A stretch of 64,000 nt of DNA from Acidobacteriota bacterium (GCA_021792135.1 JAJYVF010000028.1:1-64000); one strand, 5' to 3'; counted from the stretch's first letter, positions 13,945 through 61,664 are shown. Numbers and translations: made by a program. Notes: a model not told the origin generated them from the letters alone.

Positions 13945-14066
13945 AGAAGCAGACTGCGGGCCTGATGGGGGAAGATGCGCGCCGGTCAGGGCGGCTGTCT
14001 CCGGAACCAGCACAGGTGGACGGAGTGGCACGCCGGAGGCGGGAGCGGCGCCATTCGCAGGAGCAC

Positions 14067-14096
14067 TTGGCCGCAGTTCCGGTGGCGGGCTACAGT
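14067..14096 (+). promoter_or_regulatory. Candidate promoter of the kinase-FGE gene
   Basis: TTGGCC at 14067-14072 and TACAGT at 14091-14096 are separated by 18 bases; each matches four of six sigma-70 consensus positions. The predicted start lies about 35 bases before the ATG at 14140. An AGGAGAG element lies between the promoter and the gene but is too far from the ATG for an ideal ribosome binding site. Confidence 0.4.
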
Positions 14097-14139
14097 TGTA
14101 CGATCCGGTTTGCAGGAGAGAGCGCAGAACAAAACTATT

Positions 14140-16002
14140 ATGGCCCTGGCGGAACAACAGGAACGGCTCAGCGAGGTTCTGGGAAATAAGTATCAGATCC
14201 TGTGCCGGATCGGCGGGGGCGGGATGGCGCAGGTGTATCTGGCGCGGCACCGCTTCCATGGGGGGCTGTTTGCGATCAAGGTGCTGGCCGAACATCTGGC
14301 GGACGATGCCAGCATCGTGAGCCGCTTCGAGCACGAGGCGCGCATGGCGGCCTCGCTGGCCAATCACCCGAACATCGTGCCCATCTTCGATATCGGCGAG
14401 GGGAATGGACTGCACTATCTGGTGATGCAGTTCGTCGCCGGCGAGGACATGGCGAGCTACCTGCGGCGGGTGGGGCGGCTGACGGTGCCCGACGCCGCCA
14501 ACGTGATCGCGCAGGCCGCGGAGGCACTCTCCTGCGCTGAGGCACGGCGCATCGTGCATCGCGATCTGAAGCCGGCCAACATGCTGCTGGACGAGGGTGG
14601 ACGCATTAAGCTGCTGGATTTCGGGATTTCGCGAATTGCCGATGTTTCCGACGGGCTGACGCGGCCCGGCGAGAGTGTGGGCACGCCTTACTACATGAGC
14701 CCGGAACAGGTGCGAGGCGAAGTGTGCGACATCCGCAGCGATCTTTATGCGCTGGGGGTGGTCTTCTTCGAGCTGCTGACGGGGCGGCGGCCTTTTGAGA
14801 ACGAATCGGCGCCGGCGGTGCAGATCGCGCACCTGACGACGGCCCCCCCTTCGCTGCTGGCGTTTGACCCTTCTCTGCCGTCGGCCTGCGACTCCCTCGT
14901 CCAGAAGCTGATGGCGAAGCGCCCGGAGGAGCGCTACCAGAGCACAGCGGAGCTGCTGGAGGTACTGGTGGGGTATGGCGCGAGCAACGGGCCGGGGGGC
15001 CTGCGGCCGGCCATCCAGCCCGGGTTGCAGGAGGCCATCCGGCGGGCTGAGGCGATGCCGCTCGATCGGCAGGCGCCGACACCCATCCCGGCGCAACCGG
15101 CGGTCCGGCTGGCGGAGACGGCTCCGCTGGCGGTGCCGCCGACGCCGGCCGTCGCGGAGAGCCCAGCCGCACCGGCGCGAGACGCAAAGGCGGGGATGTG
15201 GATCGGCATCAGTGTGGCTGTGGTGCTGCTGGCGGGGATCGGAGCAGCGCTGTGGCTGCACGGGTTGCATCCGCAGGCAGCGAAGCCGGCGCAGAACGCC
15301 GAAGCTGCGCTGCCGCCGGTGTACTCCGATGCCCGTGGGCGGATGCTGCTGGTGCCGGCAGGGACGTTTCTCTTTGGCGGCAGCGCCGATCAGAACGCGC
15401 AGCCGGTTTCGCTTCCGGCGTTTTACGTGGATGAGACCGAGGTTTCGAATGCGGAGTTTCACCGCTTCTGCGAGGCGACGGGCCATGCTCCGCCGCAGAC
15501 GGCGGGCTACAGCACGCATCCGGATTATCCGGTGAGTGGTGTTTCGTATGCGGACGCGGCAGCTTACGCGGCGTGGGCAGGCGAGAGGCTGCCGACGGAG
15601 GAGGAATGGGAGAAAGCGGCGCGGGGGACGGATGGGCGGAGATTTCCCTGGGGCGATGCGTCGTGGACGAGCGGCGTCCCCACCGCGCTGCAGCCGGTCG
15701 ACTCAAATCCTTCGCGACGCAGCCCGTACGGTGCATATAACATGGCAGGCAATGTGTGGGAGTGGACGGCGAGCCCGTTCACTCCCTCGCCTGCGGAGAT
15801 GGCCGACATGAAGCGGCTGCTCAAAGGGCAGAGTTTTTCCGCCGAGTGGCGGATCATCAAGGGCGGCAGTTTTTCCCCAGGGGGCAGCGGAGATTTTGAT
15901 ACGGCGAAGCATCGGGGACTGCCGGTGGATGCGCGGTCGCCGTGGATTGGGTTCCGCTGCGTGCGGGATGCGGCGGCCATAACGGGGACAGGCAACGGCT
16001 AA
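14140..16002 (+). CDS. Membrane Ser/Thr protein kinase fused to an FGE-sulfatase-like domain
   Basis: 620 residues. The N-terminal kinase (about 18-280) is complete: GGGGMAQV glycine loop, Lys47, HRDLKPAN with Asp142, DFG with Asp160, and the APE-like segment GTPYYMSPEQ. A Pro/Ala-rich linker and one membrane helix (GIGAALWL region, near residues 350-370) follow. The C-terminal half, probably extracytoplasmic, is an FGE-sulfatase-like domain (VPAGTFLFGGS, LPTEEEWEKAARG, GNVWEW, IKGGSF, GFRCVRD). FGE-like domains of this type often bind ligands rather than make formylglycine, so a sensor role is inferred. A DUF4384 gene follows closely, and the caspase operon converges from the other side. Confidence 0.9.
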   Translation: MALAEQQERLSEVLGNKYQILCRIGGGGMAQVYLARHRFHGGLFAIKVLAEHLADDASIVSRFEHEARMAASLANHPNIVPIFDIGEGNGLHYLVMQFVAGEDMASYLRRVGRLTVPDAANVIAQAAEALSCAEARRIVHRDLKPANMLLDEGGRIKLLDFGISRIADVSDGLTRPGESVGTPYYMSPEQVRGEVCDIRSDLYALGVVFFELLTGRRPFENESAPAVQIAHLTTAPPSLLAFDPSLPSACDSLVQKLMAKRPEERYQSTAELLEVLVGYGASNGPGGLRPAIQPGLQEAIRRAEAMPLDRQAPTPIPAQPAVRLAETAPLAVPPTPAVAESPAAPARDAKAGMWIGISVAVVLLAGIGAALWLHGLHPQAAKPAQNAEAALPPVYSDARGRMLLVPAGTFLFGGSADQNAQPVSLPAFYVDETEVSNAEFHRFCEATGHAPPQTAGYSTHPDYPVSGVSYADAAAYAAWAGERLPTEEEWEKAARGTDGRRFPWGDASWTSGVPTALQPVDSNPSRRSPYGAYNMAGNVWEWTASPFTPSPAEMADMKRLLKGQSFSAEWRIIKGGSFSPGGSGDFDTAKHRGLPVDARSPWIGFRCVRDAAAITGTGNG

Positions 16003-16045
16003 GGCGATGGGCAGCGCCGACTGCGGTCCGGCGAGGAGAATGACG

Positions 16046-16954
16046 ATGGTGGGAAAGATGATGGCGGTGGCTGCGGGCATCCTGGTACTGATTCCCCCGG
16101 TGCTGGCGGCGCAGCAGGTGTCGGCGCGGGATGCGTTCTGGTCGTCGAGCGATCTGATCAGTGTGACTCCGAACCCGGCGGCTCACCGGCATGCCGCTTC
16201 GCATAAGCACGCGCAACAGGCCGCCAGTGCTCCATCCTCCGCGGCGAACACGGAGACGGCCACAGCGGAGCCGGAGAATCCGCGGGTTGTGAATGCCGTG
16301 CAGCTGGTGAGCGAAAACGGGTACGGCGCCGCGCCTCACCTGGTGCGCACGAGCGCCGACCGGCTGGGACTGCGCTGCTCGATTCTGCTGCGGGGCCTCG
16401 ACGGGCGGTATATCGAAGTGGCGCCGGGGAGCATCTTTCACAGCGGCGACCATATCCGCCTTGGGCTTCTGGCCAATGAGCCTGGGTACATCTATGGGAT
16501 CGCGCGTGGTTCGACCGGGTCGTGGTCGCCGATCTATCCGCCGCCGGGCTCGGCGGCAAACAGGATTGCGGCCGGAGAGCTGCAGATGGTCCCGGGCGGG
16601 ACGCGGGCCTTTGCCTTCGATCAGAATCCGGGGGATGAGAAGCTCTATGTGATCCTGAGCCGCGCGCCGATTGAGGACATCGACCGGGCGATCCAGGGGC
16701 TGAAAGGGAACCAGCCGGCGGCGGCTCCGCAGCATGCCGCCGGGGATGCATCGGTCCTGGTGGCGGAGAACAGGATCCCGGATTTCTTTGTGCAGCAGCT
16801 GGCGAGCCGCGATCTGACGCTGGTCGATGAGCAGAAGGTCGATCAGCGATCCAGCAGCGGCGCGGGCGAGAAGGCGATCTATGTGGTCAGCAAGGCCAGC
16901 GGTCCGGATGCGGCCGGGCGGGTGGTGCTGAAGCTGGATCTGCGGCACGAATAG
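16046..16954 (+). CDS. Exported DUF4384-domain protein A
   Basis: 302 residues with a signal peptide (MVGKMMAVAAGILVLIPPVLAAQ) and a His/Ala/Ser-rich linker near residues 45-75. The DUF4384 pattern follows: YIEVAPGSIFHSGDHIRLGL, ANEPGYIYGIARGSTG, WSPIYPPPGSAANRI, and a C-terminal AFAFDQNPGDEKLYVILSR. DUF4384 is often found fused or next to bacterial caspase-like proteins. The ATG at 16046 is chosen because GAGGAG (16033-16038) lies 7 bases before it. It follows the kinase-FGE gene by 43 bases, so they are probably one operon. Its stop is only 11 bases from the convergent caspase gene stop. Confidence 0.78.
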   Translation: MVGKMMAVAAGILVLIPPVLAAQQVSARDAFWSSSDLISVTPNPAAHRHAASHKHAQQAASAPSSAANTETATAEPENPRVVNAVQLVSENGYGAAPHLVRTSADRLGLRCSILLRGLDGRYIEVAPGSIFHSGDHIRLGLLANEPGYIYGIARGSTGSWSPIYPPPGSAANRIAAGELQMVPGGTRAFAFDQNPGDEKLYVILSRAPIEDIDRAIQGLKGNQPAAAPQHAAGDASVLVAENRIPDFFVQQLASRDLTLVDEQKVDQRSSSGAGEKAIYVVSKASGPDAAGRVVLKLDLRHE

Positions 16955-16965
16955 GCCGGTCTGCT

Positions 16966-19110
16966 TCAGGGGTGCGAGTCGAGCGCCGCATCGATGCGGG
17001 CGATGTACTGACGGGCGCGGCTGGCCTCGTCGGTGTCCGGATTGGCGGCGACGACGTTGCCGAAGCGGACCTTCGCCTCGCTGAGCAGGTGGATCACGTC
17101 CTGAGTGCTGAGGGGCGCGGCGCTTTTGCCCTGTGCGCCGGCGTTGGCTTTCTCGACATAGATGAGGCCGAGCCGGTAGTTGGCCCAAAGGTCGCCGGGC
17201 GTGTAGCTGAGGGCCTTCTGGCACCATGGGATGGCGTCGTCGTCGCGCTTCTGCATCCACTCGCAGTCGCAGATACCGAGGTTGGCCTGGCCCTGCTGCT
17301 CGCGCCAGATATCCTGCTCGGCAGCCTGGTGCTTGCGGCCGATGCCCAGCAGAAATCCGGCGAGGTAGTAATTCACATCACCGCCTATTCCGGAGTTGAA
17401 GCTGGTGAGGCGCAGATACTGCCGGTATTCGGCTTCAGCGGCCGGGGCTTCGTTCAGGTGGCGCTCGCACTCTGCCAGCCAGAAATGGGCCTCCCCATTG
17501 GCGGGTGTGGCCTGAACAGCGCGTAACGCGGCCGTTTTGCCATCGGCGTAATCGCCCTCGCGGGCGTAGGCCTGGGAGAGGAGATACAGGGCGGTGCCGT
17601 CCTGCGGCTGTTGCCGGAGGGCGGCGTTGAGCTGGCGGACCGCTTCATCGAGGCCGCCCTGATCGAGGAGGGCGGCGGCGTAGCTGACACGCGCTTCCTC
17701 GTAGTCAGGATCGATAGAGATCGCGTGCTGGAAGGCGGCGCTGGCCTTGCTGTCGGCCCAGAGGGCGTCTTCCACGCGGCCCAGGTACATCCAGGCTTCG
17801 CTGTATTTCGGATCGAGGGCGACGGCCTGGTTCAGTCTGGCCTCAGCCTTCCTGTAATTGGCGACATAGCCCTTCTTGTACTCGGTGATGGCCTGGTCGA
17901 GGAGATCGGCGGCGGCCTGATTGTGCTGGCGCGGGATCAGGATACGGACGCTGACGGTGGTCGCCTGTCCGGGATAGATCATCTCCTCGCGGGGACCGTC
18001 GGGTTCGTAGCCCATGTGGACGGCCTTGATGGTGTGCGAGCCGGGCGCGAGGCCGGGAAGGCGCAGCGCGGAGGCCCTGCTGAGCACGCCGACGTCTTTG
18101 CCGTCGAGCCAAAGCTCGGTGTTGTCCATGTTGGTCTGGACGATGAGGGTGCCGTACTGCAGATCGGGCAGGGCGGCGGCTTTGACGTGATCGGGGTTGA
18201 AGGCCAGCACCATGTTGGGATCGAAGCTGCCGCGTTCGGAGGTGGGATTCTGGCGGCCTCCGGTAGCCTGGCGAACGTTGTCGTGCACGTACTCGGCGAG
18301 TTCGTCGGCGGTGACTACGCCGTCGCCATTGGCATCGGCTGCGCCCTGCAGGCCACGCACGACGTAGTAGGTGAAGATGCCGTGGCCGCCGCCCCAGTCA
18401 GGACTCTCGAAGCTCTGCTCGCGGTCGCGGCTGGCGGTGAGGGAGAAGATCGACTGCTGCATGCCGAGCAGCATGTGATTGAGCTGGGTGGGGTCGGTCT
18501 CCGGGGTGATGGCGCCGCTGTGGCAGGCGTCGGTGAGCAGCACCTTCCATTTGCCCTGGATTTTCGTGCCGATCAGCTCACCCAGGGTCTCCATGGGAAT
18601 GGCCGTGCCGGCGATGTTATGCAGGTCGATGTCGTAGGGCGCGAGATAGCCGCTGCCGCCGGAGATGAATCCGTGGCCGGCAAAATAGATGAGGACGCGG
18701 TCGCTGGGCGCGGTGACGGAGGGCAGCCAGTCTTCCAGTTCGTGCAGGATGTTGGCGCGGGTGGCCTGCGCGTCGGTGAGGACATGGACGTGGCTGGCGG
18801 GATATTCACCGCCCTGCTGGCTGATGAGCGTGGTGTAAATCGACTCGGCGTCGCGGTCCGGATAGCGCAGCTGCGCCGACTCCGGAAGGTTCTCGTAGTG
18901 GGCGATGCCGATGACCAGGGCATAGCTCTGCGGCACCACTTTCAATCCTGCGGAAGGTGGGGGCCCAGAAGGCTGGACGGGTTTCAGGTCGCGCGAGCCG
19001 GTGTTCGGGTTCTGGGGCGGCGGCGTGGTTTGCGCTTTCAGGGAGAAGGACAGAAGCAGCAGCAGGAGGGGGAGAGACGCGGCAGCACAGGAGCGACGAG
19101 GGCAATGCAT
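16966..19110 (-). CDS. Secreted caspase-like (C14) protein with EF-hand, PEGA and TPR regions
   Basis: 714 residues with a signal peptide (to about SLKAQ). The caspase fold spans about 60-255, with catalytic His146 (IYFAGHG) and Cys196 (LLTDACHSG) both present. An EF-hand-like loop (DANGDGVVTADE, 259-270) suggests calcium control. A PEGA-like beta domain (about 320-395) and a TPR array (about 410-620; DPKYSEAWMYLG, DPDYEEARVSYAAAL) follow. It is the last gene of a minus-strand operon starting at 24438 and lies 18 bases after the second DUF4384 gene. An exported, calcium-responsive cysteine peptidase is likely; substrates are unknown. Confidence 0.88.
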   Translation of the reverse strand: MHCPRRSCAAASLPLLLLLLSFSLKAQTTPPPQNPNTGSRDLKPVQPSGPPPSAGLKVVPQSYALVIGIAHYENLPESAQLRYPDRDAESIYTTLISQQGGEYPASHVHVLTDAQATRANILHELEDWLPSVTAPSDRVLIYFAGHGFISGGSGYLAPYDIDLHNIAGTAIPMETLGELIGTKIQGKWKVLLTDACHSGAITPETDPTQLNHMLLGMQQSIFSLTASRDREQSFESPDWGGGHGIFTYYVVRGLQGAADANGDGVVTADELAEYVHDNVRQATGGRQNPTSERGSFDPNMVLAFNPDHVKAAALPDLQYGTLIVQTNMDNTELWLDGKDVGVLSRASALRLPGLAPGSHTIKAVHMGYEPDGPREEMIYPGQATTVSVRILIPRQHNQAAADLLDQAITEYKKGYVANYRKAEARLNQAVALDPKYSEAWMYLGRVEDALWADSKASAAFQHAISIDPDYEEARVSYAAALLDQGGLDEAVRQLNAALRQQPQDGTALYLLSQAYAREGDYADGKTAALRAVQATPANGEAHFWLAECERHLNEAPAAEAEYRQYLRLTSFNSGIGGDVNYYLAGFLLGIGRKHQAAEQDIWREQQGQANLGICDCEWMQKRDDDAIPWCQKALSYTPGDLWANYRLGLIYVEKANAGAQGKSAAPLSTQDVIHLLSEAKVRFGNVVAANPDTDEASRARQYIARIDAALDSHP

Positions 19111-19128
19111 GCGCTGATCTCCTTTGGC

Positions 19129-19857
19129 TCATTCACGGTGCGCCAGCCGGAAGGTGTAGATGAGGGGAAGCTTCGCCTTGGCAGCGGCCCGCACAGCCGT
19201 GCTGCCGCCGTCATCGGTAAGGATAATATCCCGGGAAGCAGTCCTGGCAAGTGGCACCAGTTCGCGGGGGATGGGCGCGCCGGGCTTCAGGGGGGCGACG
19301 CCGGCGGAGGGATCGACGCAGTCGCCGCGTGCCCTGAAGATGGAGTCGTCACAGCGGGGCAGGAGTTCGGGCGGGGGCGGCTCGGTGTTCTGCGGCTCAG
19401 CCGAGGCGGCGGAGCCGGGCAGAATGATGGGGTTCGCGCTCAGAAGGAAATAGAGGATGTCGAAGCCGGAGGGGCCGGCGACCTGAAACCAGCCGTCGCC
19501 CATGGCTGGGACAACATTGTCCTGGCCGGGCTCGATCCGGTTGGCTTCGGGGGCTGCTCCGGGCGCGGGGAAGAGGGTGTCGATTTCGCCGCTGGTGCCC
19601 CGGTCGACGACATAGAGGTAGCCCGCCATGTGGCTGGTCAGGCGAAAGCGCAGGATTTCACCGGAGCGGAAGACGGTGTTCTGGGGAACGATCCTGACGA
19701 TGTCACCCTGCTTCTGCTCGAGACGAATGGAGATGAGCGGCGAGTCCTGGCTCTGCGCACGGGGAGCAGGGGGGATCGCCAGCATCAGGGCCAGAACCGG
19801 AAGGATGCGCGCGCCACGCTGCAGGAAGGCGGGACGGAGTGGCAGGGGAGTTCTCAT
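19129..19857 (-). CDS. Exported DUF4384-domain protein B
   Basis: 242 residues with an N-terminal signal or anchor segment (LPVLALMLAIPPAPRAQ). The DUF4384 signature is evident: TVFRSGEILRFRLTSHMAGYLYVVDRG, IDTLFPAPGAAPEANRI, and FDILYFLLSANP. Its general layout matches the DUF4384 protein at 16046-16954, so the two are probably paralogues. The C-terminal half is Pro-rich and ends with a short beta segment. It sits between the Ig-like gene (50 bases upstream) and the caspase gene (18 bases downstream), so it is probably co-produced with the caspase. Confidence 0.75.
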   Translation of the reverse strand: MRTPLPLRPAFLQRGARILPVLALMLAIPPAPRAQSQDSPLISIRLEQKQGDIVRIVPQNTVFRSGEILRFRLTSHMAGYLYVVDRGTSGEIDTLFPAPGAAPEANRIEPGQDNVVPAMGDGWFQVAGPSGFDILYFLLSANPIILPGSAASAEPQNTEPPPPELLPRCDDSIFRARGDCVDPSAGVAPLKPGAPIPRELVPLARTASRDIILTDDGGSTAVRAAAKAKLPLIYTFRLAHRE

Positions 19858-19907
19858 CGGGTCTCTGGTTTCGTGTCTGAATTCACCAGCGGGGCTGCAC
19901 TCTGAGG

Positions 19908-20579
19908 CTATCGTCCGCCGTGGCCCAGAGAAAAGTGAAACTTGACACCTGCGGTCGGCGCACCGACGGCCGGCGCTCCCGCGGTGATGGTTGTGGCACT
20001 GCTGCCGCGTGTGGCCAGGATGCCCGCGACCGTTCCGGCAGCCGCGGCGCTGCCGAGGATGATGAGCAGGGATTTCAGGGACAGCGCGTGGGCGGCGTGC
20101 TCGGTTTCCGAAGGGGAAGCCTCGTTGGAGACGTTCCTCTGGTGGATGGTGGTCTCTGCCGTCGTACCGTGCCAGGTGACCCGGACCCGGATGTTCAGAG
20201 AGCCCGCATTGCCGTTAGGCCGGAAGGCCTGCGCGGCGGCGCGACCGGCGGAATCGGTCACCGTCGAGAAGACCTGGGTGCCGTTGATGAAGGTGCCGCT
20301 CGGGCCGGAATCCGGCAGCAGGAAGAGTACGGCAGCGCCGGCGACGGGCTTGTGGTTTTCGTCCTGGACCTGGACGATGGGCTCACGCGCGGTGCGCTGA
20401 CGGATGTCGTTGAGCGCGCCTTCTCCCTGCAGGATGGAGATGACGAGGCCGGATGAGGAACTGGTAGCCTGAGCCCGCAGCGCGAAAGAGCCGGAGAAGA
20501 GAAGCAGGCAGCAGAAAAGCATTGCCATCCGGCGGCCTGGACGGGCGGCATGCATGGGGAATCCTCTTCTCAGGTTCAT
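19908..20579 (-). CDS. Exported Ig-like-domain protein with a C-terminal membrane anchor
   Basis: 223 residues. A signal peptide (MAMLFCCLLLFSGSFALRAQA) is followed by an Ig-like (Big_1-type) beta domain: REPIVQVQDENHKPVAGAAV, then SGTFINGTQVFSTVTDSAGRAAA. A C-terminal membrane helix (LLIILGSAAAAGTVAGILA) precedes a Gly/Ala/Thr-rich tail. Its ATG overlaps the stop of the FG-GAP gene (ATGA at 20576-20579), so translation is coupled. Start choice is uncertain: the ATG two residues before the hydrophobic core (MAMLF) would also give a signal peptide. The layout suggests a surface or periplasmic binding protein. Confidence 0.72.
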   Translation of the reverse strand: MNLRRGFPMHAARPGRRMAMLFCCLLLFSGSFALRAQATSSSSGLVISILQGEGALNDIRQRTAREPIVQVQDENHKPVAGAAVLFLLPDSGPSGTFINGTQVFSTVTDSAGRAAAQAFRPNGNAGSLNIRVRVTWHGTTAETTIHQRNVSNEASPSETEHAAHALSLKSLLIILGSAAAAGTVAGILATRGSSATTITAGAPAVGAPTAGVKFHFSLGHGGR

Positions 20580-23380
20580 TGCGCAGTCCCCGGCTGGGAG
20601 TCGCCCACCGAATTGGTGAGGGTGACGGTGACACTCTGGACGTTGGTGGCAGCAGAGTCGAGGGTGAAGGGCTGCGTGTACAGGAAGGTTGTCCCGTAGG
20701 CATCGGAAGCCGCCGACTGATACCAGGTGGTGAAGGGAGTGCTCAGGTCCACGGTCAGGTCCGTCGTCTTCAGGGTCTGTCCCGATATGGGCGTGAAGTG
20801 GAAATGCGCCTGGGTCATATTGCGTGTGGAGGAAAGGCCGAGAATGGCGACGGTCATCGAGTTGCCGCTGCGGGTGAGGGTGACGGAGTTGATGACCGGT
20901 GCCGAGGGCGGCACCGTGATGGTGATGGGAACGAGGGTGGCCGGGGTAATGTTGGCGCCGCCGGCGGTCAGCTGAACGGTGAGGGTGATGGTGCCGGCCG
21001 TTGATCCCGGCGAAAAGTTGATGGGTGGGATGGCCGCCGTGCTGTCGGCGGGAATCTGAATCACGTCGGTGGTGGTGTTGTTGGGGAAGAGCACCGCCGG
21101 GTCGGTGACGGTGTTCGGCGGAGCCGGGGTGAAGGCGAGGGTCAGGGTTGCGGTGATGACCACCGGGTAGGGCTGGACGGTCAGGGTAATGGCAGAATTC
21201 TGGCCGGGCTGCACGGTGGTTGGGACGCTGGCTTTAGCCACCGCCGAGGAACTGAGGATCGTGAAGGTCTGGGATCCCGGCACGGCCACGCCGTTGGGAT
21301 CGATGACCGTGATGGTGGCAGGGCCTGCGGCGTCGAGCAGGGATGCGGGCACGACGGCCGTGAGCTGAGTGAGACTGACCCAGGTGGTGGCCAGCGCCGT
21401 TCCGTTCCATTTCACGACGGCTCCGCTGACGAAGCCCTGGCCGGCGACGGTGATGGTGGTGTTGCCGGATCCCAGGGTGGCGCTGGAGGGGTTAATGCCG
21501 CTCAGGCTGGGCGGAGTAACGGTGATGGTCTGGGATGCGCTCGCGGGGGTGTAATCAAAGCCGTCCGTCGGTGTGAAGACGACACTGAGCTTTGCGGATC
21601 CTGGCGGAAGCACCGTGCCGGCGCCCGGTGTATAGGCAAAGGCTCCCGGCACACCGGCGGTCGCGTCCAGCTGGGCTGGGCTGAGCGGACTTCCGTACTC
21701 GATGGCGGCCGGTGCCGGCCAGGCCAGGGCGGGCGTTGTCTGGGTGACGGTGACCTCGAAGCTGACCGGTGTGGCGGCGGCGAAGTTGGCGTCACCTGCG
21801 AAGTTCATAGTGATGGTGTCGGCGCCGGCGGGCAGCGTCTCGGGAGCCGTCTTCAGGATGGCTCCCGAGGCGGCCGAGTTGAGGTACTCCGAAATGGTCG
21901 ACGCGCTGGCACCGGCGATTGGATATTGCGTGACCACTGCAACGTCGGCCAGGCCGTCCCCGTTGAAATCGCCGGTGGCTGCCAGAGAGCTGTAAGTCGA
22001 CGCGGTTCCAATCGGCGTTACCGTGCTGAAATGCCCGGTGCCATCGTTCAGGAGAAGACTCAGCGAGCCATCGAGACCATTCACGAGAATGTCAGGATAG
22101 CCATCGTTGTTGTAGTCGGTGACGATGAGCGAGCTCGGGAAGGCAGTGAGGGTTACGCTTGAGGATACCGTCAGGTTGCCCTTTCCATCGTTGAAGAAAA
22201 CCTGCAGCAGGTCGGTGGGAATTGCCGCCGGAGCGGGTGCCCCGGTCCCGGCGGGTCTGACCGGCCTCTGTCTGGCGGCAAGCTGCTGCTGGCTTGCGCT
22301 CGCGACCACAACATCGGTGATCCCGTTGTTGCGAAGATCAGCCGTTGCCACCGCGATCGGCATGTTGCCAGCCGCATAGGTTACCGGTGCTCCGAATGTG
22401 CCGTCACCGTTGCCGAGGAAGACGGCGATGTTTCCGGGCACGGTAGAACCGCTGGTCGGGGAGTAGAAGGCTCCGGCAACCACCAGATCCGCGTGACCGC
22501 TGGAAGTCAGGTGGCCGGAGGTGACGGCCGCCGCCTGGTAGGTGTCGCCGCTTACCCCGTCGCTCAGGGCGGGAGCGGCAATGAAGGTCTTGAACGTGCC
22601 CGGGCCGGCTGTCCCCGCGTTCAGCGCGACGCCGATGGGGTTGGTTGTGCCGGACAGGTTGGCTGCATAGGCGACATCGGGATAACCATCCCCGTTGAAA
22701 TCGTCCACCGTGATGGTTTCCGTCGGATTACTGCAGGCGCAGGTGATGTTCGAATTATCCGTGCTGATGATGCCGGTCGCCGCGTAGCCGCCGCCGGCTG
22801 TTCCGGGGAGCACGTAGAACTCATTGCTGGTTCCGTTGAAGCCATGGAGCAGAACATCCTGGTTGCCGTCGTGCGTGAAGTCCGCGACCGCGTTGGCATC
22901 GACAAAGCCAAAACCGAGATTGCTGTCCCCGATCTGGTACAGGTGCGCGGTTCCGAACAGAGATGCGCCCTGCCCGGAGAAGATCCTGACCTCCGGAGCG
23001 TACGTATACGTCGAAATCGGGTACCAGTCGAGCATCCCAAGGGCGGAATAGCCGGAGGTCGTGGATGGCTGCGTAAACAGGCCGAAGGGGTAGTATCCGA
23101 AGATGTTGGTGACCGGGGGCGCGAGGAAATTCTCGGTTGTCGGAATGGCAGCGAGCGGCGCGGTCCCCAGCGGGTTGCCGTTGACCGTGAACTGAATGTT
23201 GCCGCTCGGCATGCCGGCGGCGTGCGCTGGAGGGGCTTCCGCCGCACTGATCGTGAGGCTGCCGGGCAGCTGGAGGCTGGGGCTGTTGGGCCCCCCGCTT
23301 GTGGTGGGGACCGGGAGCTGCGCATAAGCGGCCGAACCGAATGCCAGCAGAAGCGCGAAGAACGGGCGCGTCCGGCTCAT
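20576..23380 (-). CDS. Large secreted FG-GAP/VCBS-repeat and IPT/TIG adhesin-like protein
   Basis: 934 residues with a signal peptide (FFALLLAFGSAAYAQ). At least four calcium-binding FG-GAP/VCBS-type motifs occur: DFTHDGNQDVLL, DFNGDGYPDVAY, DYNNDGYPDILV and DFNGDGLADVAV. These probably build a beta-propeller over residues about 150-510. An IPT/TIG domain (GINPSSATLGSGNTTITVAGQGF) and further Ig-like beta domains fill the C-terminal half. Both ends overlap neighbours by ATGA (20576-20579 and 23377-23380), so it is the middle of a coupled operon. A surface adhesion or sensing role is inferred. Confidence 0.82.
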   Translation of the reverse strand: MSRTRPFFALLLAFGSAAYAQLPVPTTSGGPNSPSLQLPGSLTISAAEAPPAHAAGMPSGNIQFTVNGNPLGTAPLAAIPTTENFLAPPVTNIFGYYPFGLFTQPSTTSGYSALGMLDWYPISTYTYAPEVRIFSGQGASLFGTAHLYQIGDSNLGFGFVDANAVADFTHDGNQDVLLHGFNGTSNEFYVLPGTAGGGYAATGIISTDNSNITCACSNPTETITVDDFNGDGYPDVAYAANLSGTTNPIGVALNAGTAGPGTFKTFIAAPALSDGVSGDTYQAAAVTSGHLTSSGHADLVVAGAFYSPTSGSTVPGNIAVFLGNGDGTFGAPVTYAAGNMPIAVATADLRNNGITDVVVASASQQQLAARQRPVRPAGTGAPAPAAIPTDLLQVFFNDGKGNLTVSSSVTLTAFPSSLIVTDYNNDGYPDILVNGLDGSLSLLLNDGTGHFSTVTPIGTASTYSSLAATGDFNGDGLADVAVVTQYPIAGASASTISEYLNSAASGAILKTAPETLPAGADTITMNFAGDANFAAATPVSFEVTVTQTTPALAWPAPAAIEYGSPLSPAQLDATAGVPGAFAYTPGAGTVLPPGSAKLSVVFTPTDGFDYTPASASQTITVTPPSLSGINPSSATLGSGNTTITVAGQGFVSGAVVKWNGTALATTWVSLTQLTAVVPASLLDAAGPATITVIDPNGVAVPGSQTFTILSSSAVAKASVPTTVQPGQNSAITLTVQPYPVVITATLTLAFTPAPPNTVTDPAVLFPNNTTTDVIQIPADSTAAIPPINFSPGSTAGTITLTVQLTAGGANITPATLVPITITVPPSAPVINSVTLTRSGNSMTVAILGLSSTRNMTQAHFHFTPISGQTLKTTDLTVDLSTPFTTWYQSAASDAYGTTFLYTQPFTLDSAATNVQSVTVTLTNSVGDSQPGTAQ

Positions 23381-24438
23381 GGACGCGCTCCCTGGGAAGA
23401 AGCGGTGATGAGCGGCGGCGAAGGCAGAAAGACGAAGCGGGGCGTGGGGGCATCGCCATCCCAGGCCCAGACGGTGCCGGCGGCGGCGTCATTGACGCGG
23501 AAAAGCAGATTGCCGGCGAGCGGCTGCAGTTCGGTGGGCGAGCACGGGCAGATCGTCGGCACAGCGGGGGACTGGCCGGTGAGGTCAATGCGGACCACAG
23601 TCGAGCCGGTCTGGTTGGCGACAGCGGCTGTGTGCCCGTCGGCGGAAACGGCGAGGGCGACCGGCTGGGCGACCCCGTCACGCGGGCCGGCAATGTGCGT
23701 GATGCTGAGGCCGGCGGACATCTGTGAAGCTTCCACCACAGTGCCTGCCGCCTGGTCAGCGAGGAGCGCGGTGTCGGTGCCCGGCAGGAAGGCCATGCCG
23801 CCGAGCTTCGACAGCGTGAGAACGGGACGGAAGCTGCTGCTGCCGGCGGCGAGGAACTGGACGGCCGCGGCCCCATCGGCCTGCCGCGCGCTGATAAGGA
23901 TGGAGCCGGAATCGGCGACTGCGGCCGCGGACGCGGAGGCCGGAAGCGAGACGGAGCTTACCTGGGGAGTCGAGAGCAGGGACTGCACCACGAGAGCGCT
24001 GCTGTTGCCGGGCGCCCAGGCAAGGGCCACATTGCAGGATGGGCTGAAGACGACCTGGGCCCTGGGCGGGCCCAGACTGGCGACCAGTGCGGGCTGTCCC
24101 TGCGGGACGTCGGCCTGATAGAGCGCGCCCCCGGAAGTCGTCAGCAACGCGATCTGCTGGCGCATGCAGACCGCGGCGCCGGACCAGGTTCCGTTATTGA
24201 AGGTGGGCTGGCCCTGGTAAGCGGCTCCGGGCACGCCATAGACGGTACGGAGGCCTGCGATGCCTGTATCCCACCAGGCGCCGAGCACCGGTCCGGTTGC
24301 GATGGCCGAAGTGGCCGCCCCGGGGTTCAGCGGGTTCTGGTTCGCGACGGGGGAACTGGCCGTTCCACATCCTGCAACAGACAGCGCGGCAACCAACAGC
24401 CCGAACGCCCGCGGCACCTTGTAGGCAGACTGACGCAT
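23377..24438 (-). CDS. Lipoprotein with a beta-propeller-like repeat region
   Basis: 353 residues, first gene of the caspase operon. A lipoprotein signal ends in SVAGCG (lipobox VAGC), after which the chain is Ala/Ser/Thr-rich. Repeats such as AVCMRQQIALLTTSGGALYQAD, SGSILISARQADGAA and PVALAVSADGHTAAVANQTGSTV look like blades of an NHL/YVTN-type propeller. A short CPCSP motif occurs near the C-terminus. Its last codons overlap the FG-GAP gene start (ATGA). It is likely an outer-membrane-anchored scaffold or sensor; no enzyme motif is seen. Confidence 0.68.
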   Translation of the reverse strand: MRQSAYKVPRAFGLLVAALSVAGCGTASSPVANQNPLNPGAATSAIATGPVLGAWWDTGIAGLRTVYGVPGAAYQGQPTFNNGTWSGAAVCMRQQIALLTTSGGALYQADVPQGQPALVASLGPPRAQVVFSPSCNVALAWAPGNSSALVVQSLLSTPQVSSVSLPASASAAAVADSGSILISARQADGAAAVQFLAAGSSSFRPVLTLSKLGGMAFLPGTDTALLADQAAGTVVEASQMSAGLSITHIAGPRDGVAQPVALAVSADGHTAAVANQTGSTVVRIDLTGQSPAVPTICPCSPTELQPLAGNLLFRVNDAAAGTVWAWDGDAPTPRFVFLPSPPLITASSQGARP

Positions 24439-24588: not shown

Positions 24589-24686
24589 CGAGCGATCGCT
24601 TCCGGATGGTGAGCCGGTGCGGCGAATCAGCAGAGGCAACACGCGAGTCCGCTCGCCCTCTCTGCTTTCGCGGTGAGAACTGCGCA

Positions 24687-26414
24687 ATGGCTTCAGCACC
24701 TCTTCGACGCAAATCCAAAGGCCGAAAGCCAGCAGCGCAGAGCCGGCGATCCGTAAGCGCAGGCCACAGCTTTGCGGACAACGCCTCTGGCCCGCATCCG
24801 CAGACAGGATTCCTGGCGCAGGAGAGCGGATGGATTGTGTGGACCGCGGCTCTGGCCCTGGCTCTGGTCACGTTCGGGGTGTGGTCGCCCGCGCTGCATT
24901 TCGGCTTTGTCTATGACGACCACCTGCAGGTAGTGGCGAATCCGTGGATCCAGTCGTGGAGCTATCTGGGGCAACTGCTGCGACAGCCGCTGTGGGCGCA
25001 GCTGGGTGCTGAGCATGCTTCGCCCTATTACCGGCCGTTCTTTGCCTTTCTCCTGTTGACGGAGTACACGATCCTCGGAGCCAATCCGGCGCTGTGGCAT
25101 CTGGCGAGTGTCGCCCTGCACGTTCTGGTTGTGCTGGCGATCTTCGGATTTCTTCTGCTGCACTTCGGGCGCTGGCTTCCGGCGTTCTGCGGAGCCTGCG
25201 TCTTCGCCTGTTCGCCGGTGGCGGCGGAGGTGGTGAACTGGATCTCGGCCTTCGATGACGCTCTCTTCGCCCTGCTCATTCTGCTGGCGCTTTGCGCGGT
25301 GGCGGCGGGAGTGCGGAGCGAGGATGTGCGGCGGAGAGCCGTGCTTCGTTTCGTCTCGGCGGGATTGCTGGTGCTGGCAGTTCTGTCCAAGGAAACGGGC
25401 GTGGTGGGCATAGCGCTGGTGGCAGGCTATGAATGGCTCTTCGCGCCAGCGGGCAGACGAGGGCGCATGGTGCGCCAGTGGCCGCTTCTGATCCCGGCTG
25501 CTGTCCTTCTGGTGAGCCATCCATGGCCGCACGGATCAGGACGATCGCTCGCGCAGGCTGCTTCGGTGGTGCCCTATGCGGCGGCGCTGGCGCTGAAGAA
25601 ACTGGTGTGGCCGCTGCCGGTCAGCGAATTCTACGGCCTCTGGTTCGGGCAGCCGCACCCCGCAGGGTCGCTCGCGCTGCATGTTGCGGCACTGGCGATC
25701 ATGGCGGGCGTTCTGGTGTGGGCGGGGATGCGTTCGCGGTGGATCGCCTTCGCGGCATTGACGATCGTTCTGCCGCTGGGCGTGGCGTTTGTCGGGATTC
25801 GCTACTTTCGCGATTACGATCTCTTCCATGACCGGGATCTTTACCTGCCGCTGGCGGGAATCGCCATGCTGATCGCAGGGGGAGCGGCGCGCCTCGCAGT
25901 GAGGCCGAGGCTTATGGGCGCGGTCCTGGCAGGGCTGGCGCTGCTCGCAGCCGGGGAGGCGTGGCTGTCGCGCTCGGTGTCAAAGCAGTTTTCGAGCGAC
26001 GTATCCCTGTTCTCTCATGCCGTGGAGGTCGCGCCGCGGAATGTGCTGGCGCTGCAGCTGCTGGCCGAGGCGGAGCTGCGGATGGGAGACTGCGAGACGG
26101 CCATCGCCCATTACCGGCAGGCCGAGGTGCTGCGGCCGGATCTGTGGAAGGCCGTGTTCTTTCCGGGCGTGGCCGATGCGCGCTGCGGAAGGAACGCCGC
26201 GGCCGCCGCGGCTTTCGCGCGTGCCGCGGAAGTGCCCGGCGCGACGACGGAGCAGGCGGCGCTGGCATGGTATGAGCTGGGACGCGCGCGTCTTGCGCAG
26301 GGGGATGCTGGCGGGGCGCGGACGGCCCTGGAGCAGGCGGGCGAGCGCGATCCGGAGTCGCGCAAAATACGCAGCCTTCTTGCGCAGATCGGCGCTTCGG
26401 AGCAGGCTCGGTAG
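24687..26414 (+). CDS. Polytopic GT-C-like (TMTC-type) membrane protein with C-terminal TPRs
   Basis: About 575 residues. A basic N-terminus (RRKSKGRKP) is followed by about nine to ten hydrophobic helices up to residue about 440, then TPR-like helices (LLAEAELRMGDCETAIAHYRQAEVLRPD). Just after the first helix is FVYDDHLQVV, an acidic YDD loop like that of GT-C glycosyltransferases (TMTC/PMT type); YRPFF and VVNWISAFDDALFA are also typical of TMTC-like proteins. It may transfer a lipid-linked sugar to exported proteins; this is inference. The frame is open back to an ATG at 24606, so the start is uncertain. Confidence 0.7.
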   Translation: MASAPLRRKSKGRKPAAQSRRSVSAGHSFADNASGPHPQTGFLAQESGWIVWTAALALALVTFGVWSPALHFGFVYDDHLQVVANPWIQSWSYLGQLLRQPLWAQLGAEHASPYYRPFFAFLLLTEYTILGANPALWHLASVALHVLVVLAIFGFLLLHFGRWLPAFCGACVFACSPVAAEVVNWISAFDDALFALLILLALCAVAAGVRSEDVRRRAVLRFVSAGLLVLAVLSKETGVVGIALVAGYEWLFAPAGRRGRMVRQWPLLIPAAVLLVSHPWPHGSGRSLAQAASVVPYAAALALKKLVWPLPVSEFYGLWFGQPHPAGSLALHVAALAIMAGVLVWAGMRSRWIAFAALTIVLPLGVAFVGIRYFRDYDLFHDRDLYLPLAGIAMLIAGGAARLAVRPRLMGAVLAGLALLAAGEAWLSRSVSKQFSSDVSLFSHAVEVAPRNVLALQLLAEAELRMGDCETAIAHYRQAEVLRPDLWKAVFFPGVADARCGRNAAAAAAFARAAEVPGATTEQAALAWYELGRARLAQGDAGGARTALEQAGERDPESRKIRSLLAQIGASEQAR

Positions 26415-47290: not shown

Positions 47291-48469
47291 CTATTGTCTC
47301 TTCGAACGAAGGAAGGCGGCGCGGTCGGCGTCCGAACCGATCTGTTTGGCCGCTTCGCGATAAATGTAGTCGAGATCGTCGGACTGGGCGGCCAGCTTCT
47401 TCACCACGAATTTGGCGACGGGGCCGATGTAGTTGGCCAGCTTGCGGCCGATCTCCTCAAGCGGGAGGCTCTGGAAGCCGCTGCCCGAGACGGGGTTCTG
47501 CTGCAGTGTCCCGGTGGCGGGGCGCATGCCGGCGGATGGCTGGGATCCCGTGCCGGGCCTGGCGGCCGGGTTGGAACCGGTGGAAGGACGCATCGGAGTG
47601 GATGCCTGCGGTCCGGGATCGGGGAGGGTCAGGAGCGGCTGGTGCGTTGTATCGGCGGAGTAGAGCTCGATGGCGCGCAGGAATTCGTCGGCGGTGGGGA
47701 AGCGCTGGGCCGGGTCCTTCTCGAGCGCGCGCATGACGGCGTCAGAGAGGGCGATGGGCACCAGAGGCGCGACCTGGTGGGGCGGGGGAGGAATCTGGTT
47801 CATGTGGCCGACCATGATCTCGTAGTCCGTTGCTCCGGTGATCGGAAGCCGGCCTGTCAGCAACTCGTAGAGCGTGACGCCCACCGCGTAGATATCCGAA
47901 CGCGAAGTCGCTCGGGTGCCGCCGACCTGTTCCGGCGACATGTAGTTGAGCGAGCCGACGAGAAAGCCGGTGTGGGTGAGTTCGGTGGAGTGGTCGGTGA
48001 TGGCGATGCCGAAGTCGAGAAGCTTGACCACGCCCTCGCCGGTGATCATGATGTTCGACGGCTTGATGTCGCGATGGACCACGCCAAGGGCATGCGCGTA
48101 GACGAGAGCGCGGAGGATCTGCGCGACGATATCCAGAGCCTGCGGCAGGGTGATCGGAGCTTTCAGCCGGCGGTCACGGAGGGTCTCGCCATGGATCAGC
48201 TCCATGACCATCACGAGCTGGTTTTCGTAGTAGAAGGCGTTATGCAGGGAGGCGATGTTGACGTGGTTCAGAGTGGCGAGGGTCTGGACCTCACGGCGGA
48301 AGCGCTCCACCATCTCCGGCGTGCCGGTCTGCGTGGGGAGCAGGAACTTCATGGCCTCGCGGCGCTGCGAGATGAGGTGGCGAACCTCATAAACGACGCC
48401 AAGGCCGCCCGCGCCGAGCTTCGCGACGATCTCGTAGTCGCCGATCCTTTGCCCTGGTTCCAGTGCCAT
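47291..48469 (-). CDS. Ser/Thr protein kinase at the end of the T6SS locus
   Basis: 392 residues. A complete kinase domain at about 10-275: GAGGLGVVY glycine loop, Lys41, HRDIKPSN with Asp134, DFG with Asp152, and SLNYMSPEQV. A Pro/Ser/Thr-rich stretch (about 285-335) precedes a C-terminal helical segment (LANYIGPVAKFVVKKLAAQ, then RAAFLRSK) seen in other bacterial kinases. No membrane helix is apparent, unlike PpkA of many T6SS. It lies 97 bases after the DcrB-like gene on the same strand. A role in T6SS control is inferred from location; no FHA protein is seen nearby. Confidence 0.9.
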   Translation of the reverse strand: MALEPGQRIGDYEIVAKLGAGGLGVVYEVRHLISQRREAMKFLLPTQTGTPEMVERFRREVQTLATLNHVNIASLHNAFYYENQLVMVMELIHGETLRDRRLKAPITLPQALDIVAQILRALVYAHALGVVHRDIKPSNIMITGEGVVKLLDFGIAITDHSTELTHTGFLVGSLNYMSPEQVGGTRATSRSDIYAVGVTLYELLTGRLPITGATDYEIMVGHMNQIPPPPHQVAPLVPIALSDAVMRALEKDPAQRFPTADEFLRAIELYSADTTHQPLLTLPDPGPQASTPMRPSTGSNPAARPGTGSQPSAGMRPATGTLQQNPVSGSGFQSLPLEEIGRKLANYIGPVAKFVVKKLAAQSDDLDYIYREAAKQIGSDADRAAFLRSKRQ

Positions 48470-48566
48470 GCTGTGGGGTAAAGCCTCCGCCTGTTCCGGA
48501 GCGAGTTCGCGTATTTCTGCATGATAGCCGCACGATGCGGCGATCGTCAGCGCGGGGCCGCCAAAT

Positions 48567-49028
48567 TCAGCCGCTTGGGGGCTCGATGCGGAGCTGGCGC
48601 ATGAACTGATCGAAATCAGGGCGGATTCGGAGAAGCTCCGGTTCGACGGTGGTGAGGGTGGCGATGCCGATCCACCGGCCACTGCGGACGTAATGCTGGA
48701 CCTGGAAGACGGTGACCTGATTCATGGGCTGGTGCTTCAGCATCAGCAGAGCGGCTTCGGTGGCGCCGGGAAATTCGAGGGGCGCGGGTCCGGCGATCAT
48801 GGGATCCTGGAAGGTGCGCTTCATGAGGGTGACCTGCGCCCGGATATACAGCGCGAGCTGATTGCCGGCCAGCAGCTCGTCTTCTTTGAGGCAGACGTTG
48901 CTGGGTACCGGAGCGTTCTGCTTCTGAATCCCGAAGCCGGCAAGCCAGGCCCAACCGGCGGGGATGCCGGGAACGATCCAGCGGCCGATGCGCGCGGCGG
49001 TGGGCGGGATGGCGGGGTCAGCGGTCAT
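48567..49028 (-). CDS. DcrB/DUF1795-like protein, candidate T6SS effector chaperone
   Basis: 153 residues; no signal peptide. The second half (DPMIAGPAPLEFPGATEAALLMLKHQ, then VQHYVRSGRWIGIATLTTVE, then FDQFMRQLRIE) resembles the DcrB/Mog1 fold, in which a two-strand hairpin is followed by a helix ending in LRI. EagR/DcrB chaperones load membrane-containing effectors onto VgrG. No Rhs-type effector is visible here, so its client is unknown. It lies 12 bases after the next small gene of the vgrG-PAAR group. Confidence 0.55.
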   Translation of the reverse strand: MTADPAIPPTAARIGRWIVPGIPAGWAWLAGFGIQKQNAPVPSNVCLKEDELLAGNQLALYIRAQVTLMKRTFQDPMIAGPAPLEFPGATEAALLMLKHQPMNQVTVFQVQHYVRSGRWIGIATLTTVEPELLRIRPDFDQFMRQLRIEPPSG

Positions 49029-49040
49029 GGCGGGTTGACG

Positions 49041-49409
49041 CTAGACAGCTCCGGCGGCGTGGCAGACCTGCCACGCGGCATAGACGACGAGGCGGCGCTT
49101 CTGCTGGAGATCCTCGGCGGCAGCTTCCCCGGCAAAACTGAACGAGTAGCCGTCCATATCGCGGGCGAGGAATCGGAGAGGCAGGGCCTCGTTGACAAGA
49201 GGCTGCTGATTGCCGGCGGCGTACTGGGCCGCCGCGGCCTCTGCTGCGGCCAGGCGGCTCTCGAGGAGGGGCAGGACCTTCCTGTGCCAGACCGCGGTTC
49301 CCGGCGATCCGGCGGCGGAGACCGCTTCGCGCACGGCCGAAACGAAAGACGCGAACGCAGAGACGCAGCGCTCGGCGACGGCCTGGGGGATCGGCTTCGT
49401 CTCCGTCAC
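49041..49409 (-). CDS. Small Ala-rich helical protein in the vgrG-PAAR group, unknown
   Basis: 122 residues; no family recognised. Long amphipathic helices dominate (AERCVSAFASFVSAVREAVSA, LLESRLAAAEAAAAQYAAG), and a short beta stretch (MDGYSFSFAGEAA) lies in the C-terminal half. Two Cys occur. The start lies only 3 bases past the PAAR stop, so it is coupled to the PAAR gene. Context makes it a candidate immunity, adaptor or effector-associated protein. This is inference from position only. Confidence 0.6.
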   Translation of the reverse strand: MTETKPIPQAVAERCVSAFASFVSAVREAVSAAGSPGTAVWHRKVLPLLESRLAAAEAAAAQYAAGNQQPLVNEALPLRFLARDMDGYSFSFAGEAAAEDLQQKRRLVVYAAWQVCHAAGAV

Positions 49410-49412
49410 GGG

Positions 49413-50213
49413 TCAGCCCTTCCGTGCCGAGAAACTGCGGACCGTCTGGCTGGCGGTCGACGCGGCGGAGGTGCAGACTTGGGCGGTGTTCTGTGGCGGC
49501 TGCTGACCGGCCTGGGACGCGGGCCGGCCGGCCCAGGCGTTCATGCCGTCGGGGCTGGTAACGGTGAGGACTTTGACGGTGTCCTTCTGCGGATCGGAGT
49601 TCTGCGGGGGAGTGGTGGACCAGAAGTTTGTCTCGCCGTCGCTCTCGGAGTCGGCGGGGGCGTAGATCTGCGTGCCCTGGGGCAGCGTGACCGGCCGCAC
49701 GCTCTGGAAGGTGGCGGTGTTTTCCGGGGGCAGGTCGGGCCATCCGGGATGGCTGAGCGGGATCGGGGGCAGGCTGCTGCCAGACTGGGCCCAGGTATTC
49801 ATGGTGCCGTCGTATTGCAGGACGGCCTGGACGGCATTCGCCGCGGCAGGGGGCGGCTGCACGGGAACCGAAGCGCCCATGGCCGCGATACCTGCTGCTG
49901 CTCCGGCGGCCCCGGCGCCCCCGGCCATGCCGACGAGGACCGTTTCGCAGCCCATGACGGCGACATCCGGAGGGCCGACGCAGGTGAGCTGATCGGTGAC
50001 GCGCGACTGGGGCATCTCGCCGACGAGCACGGTGGGCGATCCAAGGATGAAAGGGCCTCCGACATGAGGAACGATCCCGGTGACCATGGGGCAGACGTGG
50101 TTGTCGCCGATGCGGGAGGCGGGCAGCATCCCGATGAGGACGGTGGGACAGCCGAGGATGACGATCCCGCCGTGGGCCGTCTGGCTGGTGATGGTGCAGG
50201 CCGGCATTCCCAT
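49413..50213 (-). CDS. PAAR-domain spike-tip protein with a C-terminal extension
   Basis: 266 residues. PAAR motifs cover about the first 90 residues: TVLIGMLPASRIGDNHVC, GGPFILGSPTVLVGEMPQSRVTD and an ending LTCVGPPDVAVMGCETVLVG. The conserved His/Cys could bind zinc and close the spike cone tip. A Gly/Ala turn is followed by about 150 residues of Pro-, Ser- and Thr-rich chain (PPENTATFQSVRPVTLP, WSTTPPQNSDPQKD). This may be a carried effector or an effector-binding tail; no toxin motif is seen. It follows vgrG by 15 bases. Confidence 0.85.
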   Translation of the reverse strand: MGMPACTITSQTAHGGIVILGCPTVLIGMLPASRIGDNHVCPMVTGIVPHVGGPFILGSPTVLVGEMPQSRVTDQLTCVGPPDVAVMGCETVLVGMAGGAGAAGAAAGIAAMGASVPVQPPPAAANAVQAVLQYDGTMNTWAQSGSSLPPIPLSHPGWPDLPPENTATFQSVRPVTLPQGTQIYAPADSESDGETNFWSTTPPQNSDPQKDTVKVLTVTSPDGMNAWAGRPASQAGQQPPQNTAQVCTSAASTASQTVRSFSARKG

Positions 50214-50228
50214 GGTGCGCGCCTCCTC

Positions 50229-52418: not shown

Positions 52419-52508
52419 AGGGTCGGTATCTAACTTTCCTCGCAGCGATGCGCTTCCTGCGGGTGGCACTGAAGAACCCGCAGGAAGCCTGGGTAAAGTA
52501 CCTGGAGA

Positions 52509-55163: not shown

Positions 55164-55197
55164 TCTTTCTCGCTCCCGGGGATAGATGTCGTTTCGC

Positions 55198-56241
55198 TCA
55201 TGACAGGCGGTAAGTGGCTTCGTCCGGATCGCGCTCGAGCGGACGGTTTCTGATCCAGCTCACCAGGCCGAGGCGGGACGCGCCGGGGCCGGTGGCGCCG
55301 AGCTGCATGCGAGGTGTTTCGTCGCGTTCGAGGATCAGCCGGATGATGAAGTCGAATTCGCGGTTGGTGTAAAGGCGCAGCCAGGCGAGCAGCTCCGTGC
55401 TGGCGGGTGCGCCGGGCAGGAATTCCTGATAGCGCGCAAAGCTCATGGGCCCGAGCCGCAGCGTGATGGTGCCGTGCTGGTCGAGGATCTCGTCGCCCAC
55501 CACGGTCCCCATGCCGAGACGCTCGCAGAAGGCCCCGGTATCGCGCAGGAAGGTGAGGTTGCCGGCAGGAAGGCGGTTCCAGGTCCCGGTGAATTGCTCG
55601 ACGGCGACGGGAACCTCGAAGTAGTCCTCGATAAGCTGCCGGAGGCCCTGCGCGGTGGGGCGGCGCTGCGAGAGAAGGCTGGCGTAATAGAGGCAGGCCT
55701 CGTCCTCGACCTGCATGCGATGGGCGAGGCCCCTGGTGCCGAGGCCGACGAGGTCGAGCAGCTTCTGACTGATCGGGTCATCCCCGGAACCGGTGCGCTC
55801 GTAGGCGACATAGAAGCGGTACTTCTGCCATCCGCGATAGAAGAGGGAGATGATGCGGTGGTTGAAGATATCGAAAAAATCGGCGGGGCCGCGATCCTTC
55901 GCTCGGGCGCGCTCGAGAAGAAATTCGACGTATGGATCGGGCAGGGCGCCGACGGCGGCGCAGAGCCCCATGAAATTGACCTGCATCTTCGGCTGGCGGT
56001 CGTCGGCCATTTCAAGCCCGGCGATCTCGCTCGCGGGAAAGGACAGCGTAGGTACCGAGGAGAAGCGGACCACTTCCGACGACGGAGTGACAAACAGCCC
56101 CACGGGATTGCGCTCCGGGCAGAGACGCTCGAGCAGGCGCACGGCCTGGAAAAACTGGACCGAGCACGGCTCCTGTTCCAGCAGCTCGCGGATCGGCTCG
56201 AATTTCAGATCAGCGGCTTGTAGCCCGCCTTGGGTGGCCAT
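55198..56241 (-). CDS. tssG: T6SS baseplate protein TssG
   Basis: 347 residues. Typical TssG segments are EPCSVQFFQAVRLLERL, VPTLSFPASEIAGLE, VNFMGLCAAVGALPDPY, ADFFDIFNHRIISLFYRGWQKYRF and LTFLRDTGAFCERLGMGTVVGDEI. It overlaps tssF by 37 bases, the common arrangement. TssG bridges TssF and TssK in the baseplate wedge. Length is normal. Confidence 0.95.
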   Translation of the reverse strand: MATQGGLQAADLKFEPIRELLEQEPCSVQFFQAVRLLERLCPERNPVGLFVTPSSEVVRFSSVPTLSFPASEIAGLEMADDRQPKMQVNFMGLCAAVGALPDPYVEFLLERARAKDRGPADFFDIFNHRIISLFYRGWQKYRFYVAYERTGSGDDPISQKLLDLVGLGTRGLAHRMQVEDEACLYYASLLSQRRPTAQGLRQLIEDYFEVPVAVEQFTGTWNRLPAGNLTFLRDTGAFCERLGMGTVVGDEILDQHGTITLRLGPMSFARYQEFLPGAPASTELLAWLRLYTNREFDFIIRLILERDETPRMQLGATGPGASRLGLVSWIRNRPLERDPDEATYRLS

Positions 56242-58046: not shown

Positions 58047-58051
58047 CGTCG

Positions 58052-58516: not shown

Positions 58517-58538
58517 GGGATGCAAACTCCTTTCGCGA

Positions 58539-61095: not shown

Positions 61096-61107
61096 ACGCG
61101 ACCCGCC

Positions 61108-61587: not shown

Positions 61588-61664
61588 TCCCATCTCCTTT
61601 CAGTTGGCAGAAGCTGTACGCAGCCCCGCACTCTTTGTTGACGCAGCCAGTGACCCCCGCTCCG

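Follow-up and report, generated by a model that had tools for sequence, protein, structure and literature searches.

An island of seven genes occupies positions 14140 to 24438 of a 64,000-nucleotide stretch of DNA from an Acidobacteriota bacterium (GCA_021792135.1, JAJYVF010000028.1:1-64000; hereafter the window). The seven genes are one functional unit, and the set is found in Acidobacteriota, soil bacteria, often near a type VI secretion system (T6SS). As judged from sequence, they may well constitute a module for envelope sensing in which an exported caspase and a membrane Ser/Thr kinase are linked. Bacterial caspases are usually treated as cytoplasmic death or stress enzymes. The caspase described here is exported, widely kept and intact in its active site; its partners can be named, and it has a kinase, and often a T6SS, as neighbour. 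The DUF4384 domain gains a concrete context, a kinase and an exported protease. It thereby becomes testable how bacteria might convert envelope proteolysis into a phosphorylation signal. A preliminary description of this DNA had proposed an undescribed signalling or cell-death system; an undescribed, mostly exported set pairing outside sensing with a protease is retained here, and cell death is not. The literature, in which subscription papers were thinly covered, yielded five papers that mention DUF4384 and no description of a DUF4384 function or of such a multi-gene system, so that novelty is provisional, as is the view of the envelope-sensing caspase role as a variant of envelope-sensing kinase systems that has no earlier description.

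Composition and conservation of the gene set

All seven genes are open reading frames in the window, and Pfam supports the kinase, FGE, DUF4384, C14, TPR and FG-GAP domains. The plus strand encodes the transmembrane Ser/Thr kinase with a domain like that of formylglycine-generating enzyme (kinase-FGE; 14140..16002) and an exported kinase-side partner, DUF4384-A (16007..16954, probable start 16046). Five genes on the minus strand are transcribed in the order beta-propeller lipoprotein (23377..24438), large exported FG-GAP propeller/Ig protein (20576..23380), exported Ig-like protein (19908..20579), exported caspase-side partner DUF4384-B (19129..19857), and exported caspase (C14)-PEGA-like-TPR protein of 714 amino acids (16966..19110). 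The FG-GAP gene shares 4-base overlaps with the lipoprotein gene and with the Ig gene, and the two groups converge on a gap of exactly 11 bases (16955-16965), as had been reported. N-termini resembling Sec-type leaders are present in the caspase, both DUF4384 proteins, the Ig protein and the FG-GAP protein, according to hydropathy, which is a rough guide to export and to membrane helices. The domains and layout previously given for an island of coupled exported proteins are confirmed, with a count of seven genes instead of six.

Five further genera of this family have complete, rearranged sets (G577, G454, G527, G541, and G572, where the propeller gene is in L158). Three genomes of this family (G463, G551, and G413) have five-gene sets without the kinase and DUF4384-A; in one more, G500, the contig ends early. 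Identity to the window proteins within the family is 57-75% for the caspase and 50-68% for the kinase. Gene order and orientation vary between these genomes, and the set is therefore kept for a reason other than descent of one block. Named genomes were scanned with 11 of the island caspases as queries. This approach, which finds loci through the caspase, gave 80 loci, all of them in Acidobacteriota where the title states the phylum or a lower group. Neighbours in the 80 loci include DUF4384-B (70), DUF4384-A (64), Ig (41), FG-GAP (38), propeller/lipoprotein (35), and kinase (22); in the 36 loci with about 10 kb available on both sides the counts are 33, 32, 27, 26, 22, and 13, respectively. 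One cultured, non-pathogenic member, Granulicella aggregans M8UP14 (L169), has the propeller, FG-GAP, Ig, DUF4384-B and caspase genes, and within 10 kb no kinase-FGE was seen there. Twenty random 20-kb windows contained neither DUF4384 nor Ig, and FG-GAP, kinase and propeller matches were seen in three, two and one of them; the caspase model matched in four, never through the caspase domain itself. Relatives thus keep these genes together; the opposite would have refuted the preliminary description. That the genes are chance neighbours with no common function is scarcely credible: the window alone shows a single gene order, but the same families are found together in dozens of genomes in varied orders, and DUF4384 and Ig are absent from the random windows.

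No clean empty site was found in sister genomes, where the ftsH-lptE flank is kept and the other flank is not. The GC fraction of the island (0.661, against 0.646 for the window) is uninformative for horizontal transfer. A TPR membrane protein encoded at 24606-26414 adjoins the island; it was not found in any of the 11 remaining genomes of the genus at a threshold of E 1e-30, and a relative of it also stands beside the island in G577.

The exported caspase, the kinase and their partners

The caspase matches Pfam Peptidase_C14 (9.5e-19), followed by TPRs, and its p20 domain has the catalytic His and Cys of C14 orthocaspases. Both residues, His146 (FAGHGF; 18673..18675, minus strand) and Cys196 (DACHSG; 18523..18525, minus strand), are invariant in 81 of 81 aligned caspases; a non-functional pair in orthologues would have refuted the preliminary description. 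An EF-hand-like 12-residue loop, DANGDGVVTADE (residues 259-270; 18301..18336, minus strand), is conserved as well, with D263 and E270 in all 81 proteins and D259 in 80; calcium might stabilise or activate the enzyme, calcium dependence being, with cleavage after Arg or Lys, a mark of C14 orthocaspases. Of the architecture first described (caspase with EF-hand, PEGA and TPR), the C14 domain, the TPRs and the conserved loop stand, and the EF-hand (EF-hand_5) and PEGA regions fall below Pfam cut-offs. Over most of their length, the orthologues in the 80 loci share 46-80% identity, and in the caspase tree the window protein is placed beside that of a Silvibacterium metagenome-assembled genome (81% identity). 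The protein scores 91.2 bits with the NCBIfam model for EACC1-associated caspase (NF047832), below the curated cut-off of 140 bits. A Pfam C14 search of its own genome missed even the window caspase and is unusable as a census. Plasmids gave only partial matches, to the caspase domain.

Prokaryotic orthocaspases and metacaspases (C14) have the same p20-type domain and HC dyad, and may carry DUF4384 or FGE in the same protein (PMC7475262, PMC6426788, PMC3501461). DUF4384 is known to co-occur with domains of the caspase, trypsin-like and kinase types (PMC6426788, PMC7475262), and FGE-caspase fusions have been known since 2012 (PMC3501461). In the island, by contrast, the exported caspase-PEGA-TPR protein, the DUF4384 proteins and kinase-FGE are products of separate genes. 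The alphaproteobacterial caspases with trypsin-like and DUF4384 domains are fused and catalytically altered, unlike the separate genes and intact dyad found here.

Defence and conflict systems include caspases and kinases, and on this basis programmed cell death or anti-phage defence by the caspase might be considered. PADLOC gave only generic matches, to the kinase and caspase domains, and none for the five non-enzymatic partners; by Pfam, none of the seven genes encodes a gasdermin, a nuclease or any other death effector; the caspase and its partners are exported; and no close match was found among viral contigs with the single caspase protein as query. Cell death is accordingly unlikely, and cell death and defence together make a very improbable explanation of the island.

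The kinase protein combines a Pkinase domain (Pfam 1e-47) with an FGE-sulfatase domain (1e-45). Hydropathy places the kinase domain in the cytoplasm, followed by one membrane helix (about residues 355-373) and an extracytoplasmic FGE-like domain. The active-site motifs K48, HRD and DFG are kept in 12 orthologues, whose alignment sets the start at 14140 and not at 13975, the position originally given. The FGE domain matches human SUMF1 (1e-25), with the catalytic cysteine pair (C336/C341 of SUMF1) replaced in the window protein and in 12 of 12 orthologues, whose FGE domains have no CxxxxC motif. Because the catalytic cysteines are lost, it is probably a binding domain. Both domains of the membrane kinase first described are thus real, the second not being an FGE enzyme.

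A further resemblance of the FGE domain is to PorK, from the type 9 secretion system (T9SS; 5e-17). PorU is the exported clan CD protease of that system, and T9SS (PorK/GldK with PorU) shares with the island an FGE-fold envelope protein and an exported clan CD protease. T9SS genes are not among the island genes, the likeness being limited to single domains. The exported caspase could, by a gingipain- or PorU-like logic, process or sort the co-encoded FG-GAP, Ig and propeller proteins, the kinase acting only as a regulator. Consistent with such surface-protein maturation, besides the PorK resemblance, L119, L134, and L135 lack the kinase and still have FG-GAP, Ig and propeller genes with the caspase, and secreted caspase-fold proteases have been reviewed as processing enzymes (PMC3482391). 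However, kinase/FGE with DUF4384 keeps a protease where FG-GAP and propeller homologues were undetected (L103, L104, L106, and L107), and no conserved cleavage site was found, no search aimed at one having been made. Maturation is a possible role of the island, though hardly a probable one.

DUF4384-A (Pfam DUF4384 1.8e-8) has a signal-peptide-like N-terminus, and its probable start at 16046 lies downstream of AGGAG. DUF4384-B (1.6e-10) carries the motif PRCDDxIFRARGEC, with C169 and C180 invariant in 30 sequences. Its AlphaFold2 (AF2) model is mostly beta (mean pLDDT 81.5), with no confident PDB match (best E 0.012). DUF4384 occurs in the window genome only at the two island positions, and a search of 60 related genomes, 11 of them of the same genus, gave no relative of DUF4384-B, two of the 60 having weak DUF4384 matches. 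The Ig-like protein has a Big_1 match below cut-off, a hydrophobic segment at the C-terminus and a tail of the TITxGTPxVGAP type. The FG-GAP protein matches FG-GAP_3 (6e-27) and has a CoaZ repeat. The propeller lipoprotein is modelled by AF2 with a mean pLDDT of 86.9 and is matched by Foldseek to propellers (3u4y, E 8.6e-9). Its earlier designation as a lipoprotein holds for the window protein, which has the lipobox LSVAGC, and does not extend to the propeller family, in which no cysteine is invariant.

These features suggest how an envelope-sensing module could operate. DUF4384-A may work with the outer FGE domain of the kinase, and DUF4384-B with the caspase; the partners are assigned in this way because DUF4384-A disappears with the kinase in the three genomes with five-gene sets, and DUF4384-B stays. 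The propeller lipoprotein, the FG-GAP protein and the Ig protein would form an outward-facing sensing or anchoring part. Upon envelope contact or damage, the caspase would cleave an envelope partner, and the kinase would report this cleavage inward or be switched by it. The phosphorylation output probably controls T6SS in many hosts, as PpkA-TagR does in Pseudomonas.

Association with type VI secretion

TagR is an FGE-fold protein. As in T6SS threonine phosphorylation, the island combines a membrane kinase with intact motifs and a periplasmic FGE-type domain. In the known system, sensors in the envelope activate a kinase in control of T6SS: damage is registered by PpkA together with the outer-membrane lipoprotein TagQ and the periplasmic TagR (PMC10482370, PMC6657622). 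PpkA-PppA-Fha with TagQRST and the island have in common a membrane Ser/Thr kinase, a periplasmic regulator, an outer-membrane lipoprotein and, in part of the island genomes, a link to T6SS genes. They differ in that the island fuses FGE to the kinase, adds DUF4384 proteins and an exported caspase, lacks a TagST-type transporter among its genes, and occurs in some genomes without tssK. FHA proteins are encoded in L103, L106, and L107, and a PP2C gene in the T6SS cluster of the window genome, in a search for Fha and PppA that was not exhaustive.

In the window genome, the contig that carries the island also has the T6SS, at about 50-72 kb and some 25-45 kb from the island, with housekeeping genes between. 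The cluster (47291-63697 and G000:C42:64015-73160) encodes VgrG, ClpV, Hcp, TssA-G, TssL, TssM, a Ser/Thr kinase and a PP2C phosphatase, and has two tssK copies, as do most island genomes with T6SS. DUF4384 is located within 10 kb of tssK in five of the 15 phylum genomes having both, against 0.1 expected under a uniform-placement model (P 2e-8). T6SS genes were found in eight of the 80 caspase loci, scattered over the caspase tree. A kinase-FGE gene is directly downstream of tssM in L187, L193, L198, and L215, tssB diverges from DUF4384-B in L173, and a caspase gene lies between vgrG and clpV in G068. Overall, tssK is present in 43 of 58 island genomes and in 59 of 396 phylum genomes, the latter not matched by order. 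This link, like the exchange of proteases described below, had been missed in the preliminary description.

Several observations weigh against a T6SS-linked sensing module. The phylum-wide tssK comparison is confounded by taxonomy, and in most neighbourhoods a T6SS is not encoded within 10 kb. When 59 island genomes are compared, the presence of kinase-FGE at the locus does not predict T6SS, which 14 of 21 genomes with it and 30 of 38 without it possess (P 0.36); DUF4384-A is associated with T6SS (41 of 50 versus 3 of 9, P 0.006), but with only three independent pairs. One Bryobacteraceae (Bryobacterales) clade of six related genomes has kinase-FGE without tssK, and T6SS is therefore not obligatory.

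Vicinity to T6SS and co-occurrence with it could also point to a weapon or shield, the caspase degrading incoming effectors in the periplasm or being itself a secreted effector, with its partners as immunity proteins or chaperones. Polymorphic toxins can carry caspase domains (PMC3482391). This explanation is improbable, as the protein has a Sec leader and is not a PAAR, VgrG or Hcp fusion, the catalytic protein is strongly conserved (46-80%), unlike an arms-race toxin, and the caspase is also found in genomes without tssK.

Exchange of the protease

The protease slot is exchangeable among DUF4384/kinase clusters elsewhere in the phylum. Forty DUF4384 loci, the best matches of a phylum scan and not a random sample, included a caspase in 10 cases, a CHAT protease in 11 and a trypsin-like protease in seven; at least one protease was present in 25 of the 40 loci, against one of 20 control windows. 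Six loci (L083, L103, L104, L105, L106, and L107) have the order kinase-FGE or FGE, one or two DUF4384 genes, and a trypsin-like protease with a carboxypeptidase-regulatory domain, and two of them (L083 and L105) have a caspase in addition. That the protease can be replaced by an unrelated one points to proteolysis as the conserved function. Tentatively, the envelope-sensing module might represent a phylum-wide class, built on a membrane kinase whose ectodomain is DUF4384 or a non-catalytic FGE domain. Exported DUF4384 proteins would connect this kinase to an exported protease of interchangeable type (caspase, CHAT or trypsin-like) and so turn proteolysis outside the cytoplasm into a phosphorylation signal, T6SS firing being one output.

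Other gene arrangements were noted as well. Fused kinase-DUF4384 genes accompany this caspase type and an Ig gene in L091 and L092, together with TolC-like and HlyD-like genes and then an ABC-permease-like gene in L092, where this was checked, and in L110-L113 a fused kinase-DUF4384, a free DUF4384 and a CHAT-TPR protein are encoded in one gene run. In L147:6695-15477, genes for a caspase and for a caspase-DUF4384 protein stand a few kb away from those of a phage-type tail sheath and tail tube, a possible contractile injection system. Another caspase-TPR gene, in L038:3376-13311, has as neighbours an NHL-propeller gene and, divergent, a CHASE2-cyclase with a DUF928-like gene, a layout similar in idea to that of the island, with different sensor parts.

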